Shown in pieces: positions 1 through 6,853 of a stretch of DNA of 9,161 nt. The stretch lies in assembly GCA_905479025.1 (NCBI GenBank), contig CAJQKX010000200.1, positions 1 to 9,161 on the forward strand, written 5' to 3'. The stretch's first letter is position 1. Each line of letters begins with the position of its first letter. The translations under genes were made by a program, and so were the position numbers. The stretch comes from an uncultured Paraglaciecola sp. (GTDB lineage Bacteria > Pseudomonadota > Gammaproteobacteria > Enterobacterales > Alteromonadaceae). The notes under the pieces were generated by a model. The model was not told where the DNA came from. It saw nothing but the letters and a program-made list of their open reading frames with translations, and did not search any database.

Positions 1-36
1 ATCAGATAAATCTGGAATTCCATCTCCATCAGTATC
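1..36 (-). repeat. Start of a second thrombospondin type 3 repeat, cut by the window edge
   Basis: Residues 778-789 read DTDGDGIPDLSD, the same calcium-loop motif as the main tract, directly after the Ig/MBG-like segment. The protein therefore probably alternates type 3 repeats with beta-sandwich domains beyond the window. Confidence 0.7.
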
Positions 37-2367
37 AGTTACGTCATCAATCACAGTGATCGAAGCAGTAGTCAAAGAAGCTTCAAAGTAACTTGGATCG
101 GCTGGCGCAGATATTGTTATTGTAAATACTCCGCCTGTTAGCGGTGTCACCGATCCACTTGCATCTACTGTTGCAAGTGTTACATTTGCCGAAGCTTGAG
201 TTACTAAAGTGATTGCCCCTGTACTGTTATAAGGAACTGATAAAGTAACTCTGCCATCTGAACTTGGAAAAGAATCAGGTCTGTGAGCTTTGATGTCGTG
301 TGTTCCACTACCTCCATTGCTAAACAAATCAGTTTCGTTTAAACTACCACTCTTACCATCAGAACTCACTCTCAATGCTGACAGCCAAGTTTCCATTTTT
401 TGAACGACATCCGCACCTGATTGGTCAACACTAGCAAGGATATAAGGGTCTTGGTTTGCTAAAAAGTCGGAATATGTGCCGTTTACAAGCTGCTCCAACT
501 TCCATCCGCTATAAGTTTCACCCGCAACAAGTCCGTATGCTGATGGGTAGTTTGCAGAAAGTTGCATATCTTCTTGATAAACAATTCTAAACTGTCCTTC
601 GCTTATCCCTAATGCTGTACCAGCGCTGTTTTCGTAAACAGGATTTCCATTAACTGATTCTTCAGCTTGTACATAAACAATTGAACCTATAAGCCCGTTT
701 CCTTCGTGCCCAACTCCAAAATGCCCAACAGGGGATGTTGCAATTGATGTGTTGCTTATTACGTACGTAAGCGCAAGCCCTGAATCGGTAAAAGCTCCCA
801 AAGAAAAAGAGCCATCACTCAAGTTGTGGGAAGTATCATTGTTCCAAGTGATCGTTTGAGCTTGCTGAGAATCTAGCGGAAAGTCGTCATTAACGTCTAA
901 CACTCCATCGCCGTCATCGTCATCATCTGCAACGTTTCCTATTCCATCTCCATCTGTATCAATTGGTTTAGAGTTGTCGTCCAATGGATCGGAACCTTCT
1001 ACAATTTCCTCGGCATCGCTCCATCCGTCACCGTCATCATCTGTGTCTGCATTATCTCCTGTTCCGTCGCCGTCTGTATCAGTATCTTCTGTGGGGTCTA
1101 GCGAAAAATCGTCATCAAAGTCTGGAGTTCCGTCGTCGTCATCATCTCCGTCAAATTCATCGTCTTGTCCATCTCCGTCAGTATCCGTTCCTGACGCTTT
1201 ATTTGGGTCAAGAGGAAAGTTATCTTTGTCGTCTGACACTCCATCGTTATCATCATCTAGGTCTGCATTATCTCCTATATTGTCACCGTCTGTATCAGTA
1301 TCTTCTGTGGAATCTAGCGGAAAATCGTCGTCGACATCTAGGGTTTCATCGTTATCATCATCTGTGTCTGCATTATCTCCTTTTCCGTCACCGTCTGTAT
1401 CAATTGATTCTGACGGGTCAAAGGGAAATGCGTCATCTTTATTCAATACTCCATCTGCATCTTCGTCTTGATTTGGGTCAATTTTAACGTCGATGGTGAA
1501 TGTTTTTACCGCAGCGCTTCCCAGTAACCCTATAGCTGTTAGTTTACAAATAAAAATTGGATTGCTTTCTTGTGCAGAGTTTGGTCCAGCTGGGGCATTT
1601 ATAAAACTTAAAGAATAAACATCTGGATGAAATTCTTCGCTTAGTGATGAAGAATTGTTTGTTGCGTTTCTGGAAGATTTTTCGATTTTAAAATATTTGC
1701 TTGATCCTTCTTCCACGCTAATCTGGCCTTGCATTGAGTTTGGGTGAGATTTGCAGCGATAAGTATAATTACCTATTGATGTAGGCTTGAAGGTTGTAAC
1801 TTGGTTAACTTGAGTAGCTACAACAGCTCCGTTCGAATTTAAAATTTCAAGCGGGTGTCCACTGCTGGTATTTGTAAAAAGATAAACACTACCTTCTTTT
1901 AAATTTGAAAGAGGTATATTCTCTGAACTTCCATTTACTGAAAGCTCGACTCCATCTTTAGTTAATGTATATGAAGTTGATCCATTGGGGGTTAATTCGT
2001 AAAATAACTGCTCTCCTAAGACAATATCTCTGTATGTCATATTATTTGGACGCAATAAACTCGCTAAATCATTTTCTATATTTAGCGTGCCTTCTATGTG
2101 GCTAATGCTTTCTTCCTCAAGCAGCCATTCTGGAGGGGGAGCGATAACTCCCGCTTGAGAAAGCAACCTTTTCATTTCTTTTTGAGTAAAAAATGTCTGC
2201 GAACTTAAATTCTCTCCGTTTAATGTGAGATTTCCTTCTACATTAAGGTTTTGATTTATTTCAACGCTTTTACTTACTTCTATAGAACTTCCGGTAGATT
2301 GAAACTCATCTATCCATAGAACCTTTCCGCTAATTACGTCTGAGTTGAATATATGGTTGGAGTTCAT
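1..2367 (-). CDS. Giant phage tail adhesin/fibre-like protein with cupredoxin-like domain and thrombospondin type 3 repeats (partial, C-terminus beyond window)
   Basis: An uninterrupted reading frame of 789 codons runs from the ATG at 2365-2367 to the window edge with no stop, so the product is longer. Domains in order: residues 1-110, an unrecognised N-terminal part rich in Asn and Ser; about 130-218, a cupredoxin-like beta domain with H171, C205, H208 and M212; 297-499, an acidic tract of about five thrombospondin type 3 cassettes (DTDGDG, DDDNDG, FPLDP motifs) expected to bind calcium; about 504-546 and 717-773, segments resembling the two halves of an Ig/MBG-like domain, separated by about 170 unrecognised residues; from 778, a new type 3 repeat. 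No signal peptide or membrane segment is seen, which fits a virion protein. It lies 24 bp downstream of two fibre-like paralogs, so a host-contacting tail adhesin is the best inference. A large bacterial surface adhesin is less likely because of the phage context. The start has no Shine-Dalgarno sequence; TATATAAA lies 3 nt upstream. Confidence 0.85.
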   Translation of the reverse strand, partial: MNSNHIFNSDVISGKVLWIDEFQSTGSSIEVSKSVEINQNLNVEGNLTLNGENLSSQTFFTQKEMKRLLSQAGVIAPPPEWLLEEESISHIEGTLNIENDLASLLRPNNMTYRDIVLGEQLFYELTPNGSTSYTLTKDGVELSVNGSSENIPLSNLKEGSVYLFTNTSSGHPLEILNSNGAVVATQVNQVTTFKPTSIGNYTYRCKSHPNSMQGQISVEEGSSKYFKIEKSSRNATNNSSSLSEEFHPDVYSLSFINAPAGPNSAQESNPIFICKLTAIGLLGSAAVKTFTIDVKIDPNQDEDADGVLNKDDAFPFDPSESIDTDGDGKGDNADTDDDNDETLDVDDDFPLDSTEDTDTDGDNIGDNADLDDDNDGVSDDKDNFPLDPNKASGTDTDGDGQDDEFDGDDDDDGTPDFDDDFSLDPTEDTDTDGDGTGDNADTDDDGDGWSDAEEIVEGSDPLDDNSKPIDTDGDGIGNVADDDDDGDGVLDVNDDFPLDSQQAQTITWNNDTSHNLSDGSFSLGAFTDSGLALTYVISNTSIATSPVGHFGVGHEGNGLIGSIVYVQAEESVNGNPVYENSAGTALGISEGQFRIVYQEDMQLSANYPSAYGLVAGETYSGWKLEQLVNGTYSDFLANQDPYILASVDQSGADVVQKMETWLSALRVSSDGKSGSLNETDLFSNGGSGTHDIKAHRPDSFPSSDGRVTLSVPYNSTGAITLVTQASANVTLATVDASGSVTPLTGGVFTITISAPADPSYFEASLTTASITVIDDVTDTDGDGIPDLSD
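49..858 (-). other. Ig/MBG-like beta domain apparently split by an insertion of about 170 residues
   Basis: Residues about 504-546 of the adhesin (QTITWNN... through GLALTYVISNTSIAT) resemble the first half of MBG/bacterial Ig-like domains, in which a GLxVTYxxSNxSVAT strand is typical. The expected second half does not follow directly. It seems to resume at about 717-773, with VDASGSVTPLTGG, then FTITISAPADPSY and a closing ASITVID strand. The intervening residues, about 547-716, are unrecognised; they contain GHFGVGHEGNG and a Trp/Tyr-rich part. An alternative is two separate, divergent beta domains. Confidence 0.4.
871..1479 (-). repeat. Thrombospondin type 3 repeat tract, near-identical DNA repeats of about 105-108 bp
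   Basis: This encodes residues 297-499 of the large adhesin. About five cassettes of roughly 35-36 codons alternate D-x-D-G-D-G calcium-loop motifs, DNAD spacers and DDFPLDP linkers. The DNA is itself repetitive: plus-strand stretches at 1045-1113 and 1261-1329 align over 69 bp with few mismatches at an offset of 216 bp. A related stretch begins at 1366, another 105 bp along. Similarity at the nucleotide level suggests recent unit duplication or gene conversion. Long open frames antisense to this tract are by-products of its composition. Confidence 0.85.
1714..1980 (-). other. Cupredoxin-like domain with putative type 1 copper ligands
   Basis: This encodes residues about 130-218 of the large adhesin. 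The segment has the plastocyanin-type pattern: hydrophobic strand VYLFTNT, then SGHPLEI (H171), then a G-x-Y-x-Y-x-C strand leading into C205-K-S-H208-P-N-S-M212, then QGQISV as the closing strand. A His far upstream followed by C-x2-H-x3-M is the ligand arrangement of type 1 copper sites. Plastocyanin usually has four residues between His and Met and amicyanin two, so three is plausible. From memory, a similar H...C-x-x-H-x-x-M module recurs in marine phage structural proteins. Whether copper is bound cannot be told from sequence. Confidence 0.6.
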
Positions 2368-2391: not shown

Positions 2392-3228
2392 TTATCTGAC
2401 CGCATGAGTATGTATTCTGCAAGGGTCTTTTAATTGTGTTCCAAATAATATATGAAAGGAATTTTCGGACACTCCAGAAACTAGGTGCAGTAATGCAGGC
2501 CCTTCGGTTTCTAAGCTATTAGAGATTGTCGGGGTCGCATGAAATGTATTTGGAAAATTAATCTCATAAGAATCTTGTCCGGTCGCTAGGTCTGTAAAGA
2601 AAGATTGCGTGGTAGTTTTGCTTGTTGAGGATTGACCTGTTGCTCTTGTTGAAGTGTGCATTTTATATGCGTCGCTTCCGAGAGTTTCATCAAAATTTAC
2701 ATAATATTCTGAAGTGTTAACTCCTGAAATAGAATAAGGAATAATTTTTGTTGCTCCGTCAATTTCCAAAGATAGTGTCACTGCTGGAGGTTCTCCGAAA
2801 GTCTTCGGAAAGTCTATTTTATAACTATCACTTCCTGCTGCAAGCGGAGTAACAAAAGATACTGATTCATCTGACCCTCTTGAAACTTTATTCCATTCTC
2901 CATCTTCTGATTTTATAAAAACATTTTCCAAAAACGCATCTCCAGATACATTGACTCCGTCAAGAAATGTACAAGAGTCTGCAAAATTTTTTTCACCACT
3001 AATTAATTGATCTCCTGTTAGTAGCATAGTATTATCCAATATAGAACTTTTTAAATTCTTGTATTGTATTTTTTCATTGTATTGTCCTGAATTTGAAATT
3101 AAAAATAATACTTCATCATCTTTATTTCCTTGAGTATTGATTTTTGCACTGCTTGGAAAAGGTTCTAATCCGTCAGATGACAGTTTTTGTGTATGAAAAA
3201 GATTAGATATTCTATTATCTTTGTTCAT
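2392..3228 (-). CDS. Phage tail fibre-like protein with two tandem H-lectin-like domains (paralog B)
   Basis: This 278-residue protein is a paralog of the protein encoded directly upstream (3231-4094). Residues 1-80 match that protein in pattern: RISxL, LExFPSSA, NEKIxYxNLKSSILDN and LTGxQLISGEK; the last resembles the LTGxQTISGxKTF motif of phage tail fibres. Two copies of a beta module of about 70 residues follow, at about 122-193 and 209-277. Each has the pattern L-x-x-G-x-D-S-Y-x-I-x-F-P-x-T-F-x-x-x-P, then an I/L-x-x-x-I/V-S-G-V strand and a final M/I-H-T strand. This spacing is reminiscent of H-type lectin domains, but the match is by eye. The likely role is a receptor-binding or baseplate-associated fibre component. 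The ATG is 2 nt beyond the upstream stop, so the pair is co-transcribed; no Shine-Dalgarno sequence is visible. Confidence 0.8.
   Translation of the reverse strand: MNKDNRISNLFHTQKLSSDGLEPFPSSAKINTQGNKDDEVLFLISNSGQYNEKIQYKNLKSSILDNTMLLTGDQLISGEKNFADSCTFLDGVNVSGDAFLENVFIKSEDGEWNKVSRGSDESVSFVTPLAAGSDSYKIDFPKTFGEPPAVTLSLEIDGATKIIPYSISGVNTSEYYVNFDETLGSDAYKMHTSTRATGQSSTSKTTTQSFFTDLATGQDSYEINFPNTFHATPTISNSLETEGPALLHLVSGVSENSFHILFGTQLKDPCRIHTHAVR
2398..2604 (-). other. H-lectin-like beta module, copy B2
   Basis: Residues about 209-277 of the 278-residue fibre-like protein form its C-terminus (SFFTDLATGQDSYEINFPNT to IHTHAVR). The module repeats the pattern of copy B1 and of both copies in the neighbouring paralog. 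Confidence 0.55.
2650..2865 (-). other. H-lectin-like beta module, copy B1
   Basis: Residues about 122-193 of the same protein (SVSFVTPLAAGSDSYKIDFP to MHTST). It is joined to B2 by a Ser/Thr-rich linker (about residues 194-208). Confidence 0.55.
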
Positions 3229-3230
3229 TG

Positions 3231-4094
3231 TTATGATCTTTTTGTTCCCTGAGTGCTAGAGAAGGTGTGTATCGTATAGTCGTCATTAACATTTGTTCCA
3301 AAAGTGATTGTGTATGAACTATTGTTTACACTAGATATCGTGTAAGGAATAATCTTGTTTGTTCCTTCTACACTGATCGTAACAATAGGAGCTTGTGAGT
3401 ACGCAAAAGGAAAAAATATTTCGTATTGATTTGAACCTTTTGTTAATGTGCTGCGAAAAGCCTGAATTTGCTTTTCTTCGGTTGTTTGAGACAAAGCCGT
3501 GGTATTAAGATAGTAGTTTTGACCTTGAGTTTTGGAACTTAATTTTAAAGAAAAATCGTACCTTGTAACGTTTGAAATTATGAACGGCTTTATTGCTCCT
3601 CCATTCTCGCTTTCAAGGTTTGCGCATATTACTGGATTCGATTCAAATGTTTTTGGTAAATTTATTTTAAATTCATCGAACCCTTCTTTTAACCGAGTTT
3701 TGAATGCTACTGTCTCATCTTTTATTGATGAAATTTTGAAAAACTCTGCGGAGGGCTGTTCTTGAATGAACGCGTTTTCCAAAAAACAGTTTCCTGATAT
3801 CGACAGATCTTTGGTTGGGCCAGCCGAATTAAGCGAGCAGTTAGAGTTAAAAGTTTTTTCTCCGCTTATCAATTGAGTTCCTGTTAAGCATACTGCATTA
3901 TCTAATATCGAGCTTTTTAAATTCGAGTAAGATATTTTTTCATTTCTTTCTCTTGGTCTAGCCAGTAAGAAGTCTATTTTTTTGTCATGCTCTGTTTGCG
4001 AGTTTAAATGCGCAGAACTTGGAAAGCTCTCTAGAGTTAAATCAGAAATTAATATTTCTTTTTCTTGTAAATCTGAAATTCTTTTATTAGGCAT
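3231..4094 (-). CDS. Phage tail fibre-like protein with two tandem H-lectin-like domains (paralog C)
   Basis: This 287-residue protein is the first gene of the left minus-strand block. It shares its whole architecture with the next gene downstream: an N-terminal region (RISDL, LESFPSSAHL, NEKISYSNLKSSILDN, LTGTQLISGEKTF, residues about 5-82), a short linker with SGNCFLENAFI, and two beta modules at about 129-200 and 211-280. The shared N-terminus could be a particle-attachment or trimerisation region, while the more varied C-terminal modules could contact the host. That division is inferred from general fibre organisation. The DNA of the two paralogs differs at many synonymous sites, so the duplication is not recent. 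A TATAAATA octamer lies 11 nt upstream of the ATG, making this the probable head of a late transcript running into both downstream genes. Confidence 0.8.
   Translation of the reverse strand: MPNKRISDLQEKEILISDLTLESFPSSAHLNSQTEHDKKIDFLLARPRERNEKISYSNLKSSILDNAVCLTGTQLISGEKTFNSNCSLNSAGPTKDLSISGNCFLENAFIQEQPSAEFFKISSIKDETVAFKTRLKEGFDEFKINLPKTFESNPVICANLESENGGAIKPFIISNVTRYDFSLKLSSKTQGQNYYLNTTALSQTTEEKQIQAFRSTLTKGSNQYEIFFPFAYSQAPIVTISVEGTNKIIPYTISSVNNSSYTITFGTNVNDDYTIHTFSSTQGTKRS
3255..3464 (-). other. H-lectin-like beta module, copy C2
   Basis: Residues about 211-280 of the 287-residue protein: G-S-N-Q-Y-E-I-F-F-P, then a VTISVEGTNKIIPYTISSVN strand pair and a final YTIHT strand. Its core (IIPYxISxVN) is closest to copy B1 of the neighbour. 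Confidence 0.55.
3495..3710 (-). other. H-lectin-like beta module, copy C1
   Basis: Residues about 129-200 of the 287-residue protein (AFKTRLKEGFDEFKINLPKT onward, ending YYLNT). It is the most diverged of the four copies: the central strand is IKPFIISNV and the final His is replaced by Asn. Confidence 0.5.
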
Positions 4095-4145: not shown

Positions 4146-5273
4146 ATGGCTAAACCTTCTCCTACTAGAATCACATACGAAAGGCTTGGAATTATGGTAT
4201 CTGATTCTCCCGCTTATAAAGAGGCAGGTTCTGTTTTCAAAAACTTGATAAGAGTTCAGGATGTTGATTATGATTTTTCACATCCCGCTTTAGATTTAAA
4301 GTCTGTTGGTTTTGATAATTTAATTGTTAAAGACGAAGAGTCTCCTGTTGTCAGGCAGGGTGATGTTCGGTGTAATATTTCATATCTTTTTTCTAGCGGA
4401 CAAAACGAAGAAGCTATCGGTTTTAATTTGAGCCCTAGCGAAACAATTTTAAAAAATTTTATAGATGCTCCTGGCCACAACGACAGTAATATAGTTATTG
4501 TCGCCGCAAACGAGGTTGACTCTATAGATTTAAACAATATAAAAGATCAAGATTCTTTTGAGGGATATAATGTAATAGGTTTAGGTAACTCCTTTTTGAT
4601 CGATTATAACTATGAAGCTTCTGTTGGGCAGCTGCCTTCTGCTTCAGTTACTTATGACTGCGGAAACATGAAATTCGATATTTATGAGCACAGTAACCCC
4701 CCCTCTTTTCCTTCTTTAAAGCTAGGCTCTGATAATAAATTTTCAGAAGAAAAAATTAATATAACTTCTGAAACGTTTTCTCCACAAGTATCTGCAGACT
4801 GCAATGCAATTATGCCTGGAGATATTTTGATAGAAATAACTAAAAAAGCTGGAGATTACGGAGGTGTCCCTTTGGAAAAAGTAAACGCAGCAATACAAAG
4901 CGTATCTATCGATGTTCCAATTCCTCGGCAAAATATTTTTGGATTTGGTAGTAATTATGTTTTTGATAGAAAATTAAAACTTCCAATTATAGGATCGTGT
5001 GCTATAGAAATGATTGTTCGGGAATTTGATGAAGGTCAGATAGACTCTTTTTTTACAAAAGGCTCTGTATACGACATCAAAATCAAGCATACTGATAGAG
5101 ATTTAAATGACGGCAGGGTTGAAGTTTCTTCTGTGATTAATACATTTTTAATAGAGGGAGCGCAATTAAAACAGCAGGCATACAGAGCTGGAATTGGTGG
5201 CCAAATGACTGTTGGAACTTTTTTTACTTTTGGAATAGGTAGAAAAAAGGGATTAAAGTTATATAGACAATAA
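4146..5273 (+). CDS. Tail tube-like structural protein, second paralog, on the opposite strand
   Basis: This 375-residue protein is clearly related to the 509-residue protein encoded convergently at 5324-6853. Matching blocks are RVQDVDYDFS (36-45) with RVQSANYSFS (55-64), VIGLGNSFLIDYNYEASVGQ (143-162) with VIALGNGFVSNYSIEAAVGG (162-181), MPGDILIEI with RPGDITLSL, and IQSVSIDVPIPR (250-261) with IQSFSIDVPLSR (369-380). The C-terminal IEGAQ... block also corresponds to LEGES.... The N-terminus is shorter and the CBM-like insertion is absent. Possible roles are a minor tail tube, tail tip or tube-initiator protein, or a decoration protein; sequence alone cannot decide. The ATG has AAAAAGGTG 11 nt upstream, one of the better ribosome-binding candidates here, though rather distant. 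The stop overlaps the terminator at 5273-5301. A C7 run lies at 4697-4703 with the frame intact. Confidence 0.85.
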   Translation: MAKPSPTRITYERLGIMVSDSPAYKEAGSVFKNLIRVQDVDYDFSHPALDLKSVGFDNLIVKDEESPVVRQGDVRCNISYLFSSGQNEEAIGFNLSPSETILKNFIDAPGHNDSNIVIVAANEVDSIDLNNIKDQDSFEGYNVIGLGNSFLIDYNYEASVGQLPSASVTYDCGNMKFDIYEHSNPPSFPSLKLGSDNKFSEEKINITSETFSPQVSADCNAIMPGDILIEITKKAGDYGGVPLEKVNAAIQSVSIDVPIPRQNIFGFGSNYVFDRKLKLPIIGSCAIEMIVREFDEGQIDSFFTKGSVYDIKIKHTDRDLNDGRVEVSSVINTFLIEGAQLKQQAYRAGIGGQMTVGTFFTFGIGRKKGLKLYRQ

Positions 5274-5323: not shown

Positions 5324-6853
5324 TTATCCAGAATACCATCCAGGTAGGTTTTCAACGTCTAAAGCGTTTCTAGATCCTAGTATAAATAAACCTCTTGCTT
5401 TATCTTCTGGAGCTCCAACTTGAGCAGTAAAGGTTAAGTCTACAGATTTATTATCTCCAATGCTTGAACTGAACGACTCTCCTTCGAGAAGAGCTCCCTT
5501 TACAACATATTGCATTGCTACTGGGCCATTTCCCATTTGAGCTGGCTCACGCATTGTAAATACTAGATCGTGCTCTTCAGTGTTCCATAACAGCTCTGCT
5601 ACGTCGCCTTTTTTGAGGTCTGCTAGTATTGCATTTACTGAAATTGAAATGTTTACTGGATAATCTACCACTCTGCTGTATCCATATGGAGATCCTAATC
5701 TGTTTAATACAGATCTTGAAAGAGGAACATCGATACTAAAGCTTTGAATGTGTGCTGACCCTGCAACAGAGTAGTCTTTTTTCGGGTCATCTTGCACTGA
5801 AACCGAAGTGCCATCGTCAAATTTTTGATTTTCCGCTAAATCCCAATTACCGTCTTGTCCTGTGGGTACTGCTGTGTTTGAGGCTGTTAACGATTTGTAA
5901 AGATGTGGGCCATCTGCGTTCACCCCTGTGTTCTGAATAATATCGCCTAAACCGTAAGTTGTGTTAGCTTCGTAACTTGGGTATGCATTGATATATTTTC
6001 CCTTAACTGTATTTCCGTAGTCGCTTGCTCGAGGATCTTCGCCTGGAAGAAGCTCGAATTCTGCAGCTCGTCCATCTGTTCCAAGAGATAGTGTTATATC
6101 TCCAGGGCGCAAGCAAGACCAACCTTCTGATTCTTGATCTGTGTCTGTAGCGCTGTCATTTAAAACGCCACTAACTGCAGGAGGAATACTAAATTTAACG
6201 TCTGTAATTGGTGTTCCATAATTAGTATTAACTGCTGGAATTTCAAGATCTTTGCATCCTGTATAACTTTTTAAGTTTAAACCGTCAACTGTAACATTCG
6301 CAGTTGGCATTCCGCCTACTGCAGCTTCTATTGAATAGTTTGAAACAAAACCGTTTCCAAGCGCTATAACACTTTTATTGTCTGAACTTGTTGTGTCTGC
6401 ACCGACCGCATCTTTTCCTTCGCAGGTTGTTAATATAAAAAAGTTTTTTCCTGCAGCGTTAACGCTTTCTCCACAAACAACTCCATCCATAATTTCGCTT
6501 GAAAGTGCGCTTTGTTTTCCGCTAACATTCATTCCTAGCAATCTTTCATTTATTCCGTTTGTTAAGTAATATGAAAAATCGAGAGTTACTGTGGGAGGCT
6601 CTATCGAGACTGAGTCTACTCGAGCAAGCTGACCAAATTGATTTACGTCTTGACGATTAATACTGAAACTATAGTTTGCGCTTTGTACTCTTCGAAGTTG
6701 TTGAATGCCTGTTTTGTCTACGCCAGCCACGTCAGTTGCTTTGCCTACGTTGCCGTCTGCGAAGTGGTGTCCTGTTGCGTCAACTGTTCCGGCATATAAT
6801 GCCTCGCTTTGATAAATTACTCGCGCTCGTCCTGGTAAATTTTTGTCTGCCAT
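5324..6853 (-). CDS. Probable major tail tube protein with CBM5/12-like insertion
   Basis: This 509-residue protein lies downstream of connector and tail-terminator-like genes, where tail tube genes usually sit. The N-terminal half has RVQSANYSFSI and FGQLAR followed by a PPTVTLDFSYYLTNGINERLLG block; from memory this block is characteristic of major tail proteins of uncultured marine phages. IALGNGFVSNYSIEAAVGG (163-181) and IQSFSIDVPLSR (369-380) are shared with the plus-strand paralog. Between residues 258 and 368 there are 111 residues where the paralog has 18; the extra part holds a CBM5/12-like segment (about 288-341). It is much longer than compact tail tube proteins such as T4 gp19 (163 residues), so surface decoration is likely. 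Other possibilities are a major tail protein of a siphovirus or a tail-surface protein. The ATG follows a 66-bp gap, so it may have its own promoter. It ends at the shared terminator. Confidence 0.85.
   Translation of the reverse strand: MADKNLPGRARVIYQSEALYAGTVDATGHHFADGNVGKATDVAGVDKTGIQQLRRVQSANYSFSINRQDVNQFGQLARVDSVSIEPPTVTLDFSYYLTNGINERLLGMNVSGKQSALSSEIMDGVVCGESVNAAGKNFFILTTCEGKDAVGADTTSSDNKSVIALGNGFVSNYSIEAAVGGMPTANVTVDGLNLKSYTGCKDLEIPAVNTNYGTPITDVKFSIPPAVSGVLNDSATDTDQESEGWSCLRPGDITLSLGTDGRAAEFELLPGEDPRASDYGNTVKGKYINAYPSYEANTTYGLGDIIQNTGVNADGPHLYKSLTASNTAVPTGQDGNWDLAENQKFDDGTSVSVQDDPKKDYSVAGSAHIQSFSIDVPLSRSVLNRLGSPYGYSRVVDYPVNISISVNAILADLKKGDVAELLWNTEEHDLVFTMREPAQMGNGPVAMQYVVKGALLEGESFSSSIGDNKSVDLTFTAQVGAPEDKARGLFILGSRNALDVENLPGWYSG
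5831..6007 (-). other. CBM5/12-like carbohydrate-binding segment inserted in the tail tube protein
   Basis: Residues about 283-341 contain the pattern A-Y-P-S-Y-E-A-N-T-T-Y-G-L-G-D-I-I, then LYKSLTASNT, then a terminal G-N-W-D-L. The order (aromatic, T-Y-x-x-G-D-x-V, L-Y-x-S/A, final W) is that of small chitin/cellulose-binding CBM5/12 modules often found in phage tail proteins. The homologous position in the plus-strand paralog has no such segment, so it is an insertion here or a loss there. Confidence 0.5.

Follow-up and report, generated by a model that had tools for sequence, protein, structure and literature searches.

A predicted cupredoxin module with a complete set of type 1 copper ligands in a phage tail adhesin

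The window, a stretch of 9161 nucleotides from an uncultured Paraglaciecola sp. (contig CAJQKX010000200.1), differs at 5 of its 9161 bases from positions 58352–67512 of a 75.8-kb virus record, to which it aligns on the minus strand. At one end lies the open reading frame of a predicted tail adhesin (1..2367, minus strand), which is cut by the window edge at residue 789 and is 1210 amino acids long in a near-identical record. Because genes elsewhere in the virus record match the lambda J-like tail tip, tape measure and minor tail families, its source is assigned to a tailed phage. A Pfam scan of the adhesin gave one match above the cut-off, to Big_2, and a sub-threshold match to Cupredoxin_1 at residues 181–217. 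The latter falls in a domain at approximately residues 124–221 (1705..1998, minus strand) that an AlphaFold2 model, fold matches and profile matches identify as a cupredoxin, and within which (1714–1980, residues 130–218) the original prediction had placed a complete copper-site-like ligand set.

Structure prediction, which had been proposed as a check, was run on residues 120–227 and gave an all-beta cupredoxin model of nine strands (predicted local distance difference test score, pLDDT, 87.6). When the model was compared with the PDB using Foldseek, copper-protein domains matched best and 50 of the 50 matches listed were cupredoxins or proteins containing such domains. The strand order in the model and the alignment with amicyanin described below agree with a putative convergence of the four side chains in space. 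A plastocyanin-like beta domain had been claimed, and both the fold and homology at the profile level are seen; the likeness to amicyanin holds in the alignment, but the closest structures are the N-terminal domain of nitrite reductase, rusticyanin and auracyanin rather than plastocyanin in particular. Models of giant-virus proteins in BFVD also match (A0A7D3QVK4 and others), one of them named blue type 1 copper protein (Fadolivirus) and several named beta-sandwich protein.

Claims of distant homology rest on profiles, as searches with the window sequence only returned either identical copies of the domain or weak matches, with no significant match in the PDB (4hcf, E 0.67). Profiles of the phage domains reach amicyanin, plastocyanin and rusticyanin in the PDB. 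Profile A2 (58 rows, many gathered by a Y-C-H-M-G pattern) found 2dv6 at 8.8e-11 and amicyanin at 7.5e-8, the latter with His, Cys, His and Met in register, while profile A1, assembled after a motif scan, found 4hcf at 1.7e-6. No phage chain was present among the PDB matches listed for these profiles (the best 60 of 140 for A1 and the best 60 of 70 for A2). A pattern-free control profile, A4, built from the window copy and 19 domains from a tblastn-confirmed scan with six peptides, matched seven PDB sequences at E ≤0.01, all of them type 1 copper proteins (best plastocyanin, 3.3e-4). The Pfam model PF00127 (Copper-bind) was passed by the proteins of loci L121 and L128 (22.1 against a cut-off of 21.2) and not by those of L127 and L177, the cyanophage protein S-SZBM1_206 or the window protein. 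Residues 124–221, approximately, are almost certainly a true cupredoxin with a complete ligand set.

Translation of 2367..1 on the minus strand places the four residues at the positions and in the order originally proposed: His171, the predicted first metal ligand, in a GHP motif (1855..1857), the predicted metal ligands Cys205 (1753..1755) and His208 (1744..1746), and Met212 (1732..1734), a predicted axial ligand separated from His208 by one more residue than in the majority of the copies counted (all minus strand). When the 789 residues were shuffled, C-x2-H-x(2-4)-M arose in 10 of 20 000 trials, in a test that demanded neither the upstream His nor the fold. The stronger evidence is that the ligands recur in the same columns when distantly related domains are aligned, and the two together rule out a chance motif. 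Cysteine is scarce in the adhesin (2 among 789 residues) and Cys205 is the only one in the domain, so a disulfide is not favoured as its purpose.

Co-conservation of the four residues was examined with a profile in which the ligand columns were masked, searched against the open reading frames of 303 loci. This gave 383 rows, from which 35 gapped at a ligand column, 4 copies of the window domain itself and 205 fitting the selection patterns were dropped. The remaining 139 domains included 113 from loci of the six-peptide scan, in which one peptide included the first His and one the Cys; some contigs are present twice, a permissive score limit was applied, and a number of the rows lacking ligands are partial or weak matches. 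All four ligands were found in 125 of the 139. Singly, the first His was kept in 126, Cys in 127, the second His in 126 and Met in 130. In the other 14 domains, eight had no ligand, three only Met and one only the first His, while one lacked only the first His and one retained Cys and Met. Three or four ligands had therefore been lost in 12 domains and one or two in 2, and the four are kept or lost nearly as one unit, which bears out the co-conservation that had been proposed as a check. Homologues that drop Cys or His freely, named beforehand as what would speak against the site, were not seen, partial loss being confined to 2 of the 139. Independent loss predicts approximately 0.007 ligandless domains in a set of this size (by hand arithmetic), against the eight observed or six after removal of identical rows, although the sequences share ancestry, and four of the eight come from a single pair of domains present in both L053 and L278. 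In a tree of 192 domains made with the ligand columns omitted, switches between the full and deficient states occurred nine times. The invariant columns of A2 are the four ligands, the Tyr two before Cys and one Gly and, apart from the first His, these were fixed by the selection pattern in many rows. The first His was kept in 58 of 58 rows that are 24–41% identical to the window copy, and no selection pattern required it. Loci L053, L076, L278 and others encode domains without most or all of the ligands, two of them neighbours in one protein in L053 and in L076, and such ligand-poor domains form a natural contrast set for the role of the metal.

The C-x2-H-x3-M spacing given in the original prediction is correct for the window, but the amicyanin row and most of the phage copies counted have x2 (108 of 111 domains in a tblastn set from viral contigs and 8 of 8 rows from named phages). 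The x3 pattern was found in 91 viral stretches, and 84 of the 91 loci have a domain with this spacing, two of them near-identical copies of the one in the window, ruling out a one-off oddity. In cellular genomes, 117 of 120 motif loci with C-x2-H-P-x2-M, among those listed, match the A2 profile domain. The x3 form is therefore a real subclass common to the window copy and cellular cupredoxins. No relative was found when cellular genomes were scanned with the close subclass A3.

A P-SSM2 domain, searched against 50 697 phage records, hit 351 with E ≤0.01, a count that includes many near-identical isolates. Sorted by first name, these were 269 Synechococcus, 55 Cyanophage, 19 Prochlorococcus, 4 Marine, 2 Pelagibacter and 2 other, so that 343 of the 351 are cyanophage-named, and the recurrence in marine phages that had been suggested is confirmed. 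Matching genomes include ones of 37 and 45 kb. A laxer search gave 370 records, and when 60 were sampled at even steps the protein was named as a baseplate or tail protein in 47, as hypothetical in 12 and not at all in one; in cyanophages the host protein is often annotated as a baseplate wedge or tail fiber connector. In phage S-SZBM1, a domain with all four ligands stands at the end of SSZBM1_206, a protein with a T4 gp9/10 N-terminus. The S-SZBM1 paper (PMC9146016) lists S-SZBM1_206 (498 amino acids; 9 and 24.9%, taken here as peptides and coverage) among proteins of caesium chloride-purified particles identified by mass spectrometry. On the strength of that entry, virion presence holds for a homologue with such a domain and is only predicted for the window protein itself. 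The description of the window protein as a phage tail adhesin stands on its tail-gene setting and its tail and baseplate relatives, while virion presence is reported for the homologue only. Soluble plastocyanin genes (petE) of cyanophages, already known (PMC3037559), are a distinct matter. Among the papers listed from the open-licence literature, none was on a cupredoxin domain in phage tails, judged by title and the opening of the abstract, which is weak evidence of novelty.

Beside the adhesin are two lectin-like neighbours on the minus strand, one with an H-type lectin domain (2392..3228; Pfam 24.0 bits, cut-off 24) and a second that is 37% identical to it (3231..4094). In single pairwise comparisons, a protein in L121 (3030–4676, minus strand) matched one of them at 8e-19 in its C-terminal part and 3e-11 in its N-terminal part, and a protein in L169 (9384–11033, plus strand) matched the other at 2e-18 and 7e-8, respectively. 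The cupredoxin domain sits between the two lectin-neighbour-like parts in both, and it is also found in other long proteins in L127 and L128 whose starts are tail-fibre-like by eye. From its occurrence in these different proteins, the domain looks like a module that has moved between adhesins.

Within the adhesin, Asp-rich repeats of the thrombospondin type 3 kind occupy approximately residues 303–500 (868..1461, minus strand; limits set by eye). Pfam matches there were below the cut-off (TSP_3, 357–390; TSP3_bac, 443–463), and a tandem array with a period of 105 nucleotides runs across residues 323–445, approximately. These repeats probably hold Ca2+ sites. In the near-identical relatives P0001, P0002 and P0003, the adhesin is 1210, 1314 or 1418 amino acids long, in steps of 104, and the cupredoxin domain is 100% identical. 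The longest variant differs from the shortest in additional copies of a Big_2-type repeat region, and hence fibres seem to differ in length by complete repeat units. Elsewhere in the tail cluster, the proteins at 4146–5273 (plus strand) and 5324–6853 (minus strand) are related (27% identity over 220 columns) and are possible paralogues, one copy being inverted; inverted repeats flanking the opposite-strand gene are weak. An 861-amino-acid protein in the same record (L005, 7793–10378, minus strand) has a PHROG tail sheath match over its C-terminal half, odd beside a lambda J-like tail tip. L004 and L005 (G000 bases 1–28000) contain a run of genes whose starts are, by eye, partly glycosyltransferase- or sugar-enzyme-like.

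Taken together, we favour with moderate confidence a cupredoxin module with a complete type 1 set that binds copper and has a structural or recognition role in the tail adhesin. Computation shows the predicted fold, the full set of ligands, their conservation almost as all or none and the tail or baseplate setting of the relatives; that metal is bound in the virion is probable and, if it is, a structural or recognition role seems rather more probable than a redox one. The copper would be acquired as the protein folds inside the host or once it is free in the water, and most likely would act for the adhesin and not as part of an electron-transfer chain. By fixing the beta-sandwich loops that bear His171 and the C-H-M ligands, it may create a rigid face that aids the fibre in holding or recognising the host envelope, alongside the Ca2+-type repeats of the adhesin and the adjoining lectin-like proteins.

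Several observations weigh against this reading. The ligandless copies suggest that the fold can do without the ligand residues, and five non-ligand columns, foremost the Tyr at Cys –2, are better conserved than any ligand. The control profile makes the PDB match slightly weaker, though not enough to shift the probabilities given here, and, in the alignment of A4 with plastocyanin, Cys and the second His are aligned but the first His is approximately two columns off. The domain could instead be only an immunoglobulin-like spacer, its ligands relics of a cellular copper protein and its virion free of metal. Tail fibres commonly contain beta-sandwich spacers, and the ligandless copies still match the masked profile, some of them adjoining in one protein (L053, L076), so a metal-free form of the domain is probably functional. 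Relics, however, should lose single ligands at random, and neither the excess of ligandless domains over that expectation nor the first His kept without selection in every A2 row fits this, making the spacer unlikely as the whole explanation.

A metal-bearing adhesin module is also preferred to a redox-active site that trades electrons with surface or periplasmic partners of the host, or senses redox to trigger a step of infection. The fold and ligand set are those of electron-transfer proteins, but the record contains a single match to the domain (other redox proteins there were not searched for), and finding the module in tail and baseplate proteins across phages of differing type argues for a generic role not bound to a pathway and leaves a redox role improbable. 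Cupredoxins bury their metal and bind it tightly. The least probable alternative, a bait for a host metal-uptake receptor as PMC11705849 proposes for iron in tail fibres with HxH motifs, is in keeping with the likely host-recognition function of the proteins concerned, but metal so enclosed would be poor bait and no receptor is known here.

The recurrence of the module in tail and baseplate proteins of ocean phages, with ligands kept or lost nearly together, suggests that such virus particles carry metal, probably copper. Should copper occupy the sites, many ocean virus particles would be copper proteins, an idea not met among the papers listed from the open-licence literature, and phage adsorption could hinge on trace copper. 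Going further, it is possible, and offered tentatively, that a large proportion of ocean phages, cyanophages foremost, have virions that are copper proteins, with one or more type 1 copper sites in their baseplates and fibres. These sites would be occupied in the particle and required for attachment, so that phages would contribute to the sea's pool of organically bound copper and their adsorption would depend on copper. The copper question can be put directly to cultured phages (P-SSM2, S-SZBM1 and other cyanophages), and the domain now has a likely identity in proteins annotated as connector or hypothetical.

Amicyanin, plastocyanin, pseudoazurin and rusticyanin, which are small free electron carriers, share the fold and ligand order, and the amicyanin alignment also has Tyr at Cys –2 with the four ligands in register. 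The window domain differs in being a module of a 1210-amino-acid protein, with a C-x2-H-x3-M loop and Pro after the first His, and its place in a long protein in a record with tail genes rules out a free-standing carrier of the plastocyanin or amicyanin type. In 2dv6, the N-terminal cupredoxin domain of a three-domain copper nitrite reductase, the domain serves an enzyme, whereas Pfam scans of the adhesin found no enzyme domain at the cut-off. Iron-binding HxH tail fibres of the T4 gp37 type share a metal on a phage fibre, but the ligands differ, and no HxH motif was found in the 1210-amino-acid adhesin or its two longer variants. The cyanophage connector and P-SSM2 tail spike domains are homologous, with the four ligands at the model columns in 7 of 8 phage rows, but have x2 spacing and other host proteins. 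Cellular C-x2-H-P-x2-M cupredoxins (archaea, Chloroflexi and others) share the loop spacing of the window; around the first His, approximately 30 cellular examples have mostly PHN, PHT or HS/HT-like contexts, while phage copies mostly have GHP. The cupredoxin fold itself was already known, and the surprising part is its virion setting and concerted conservation.
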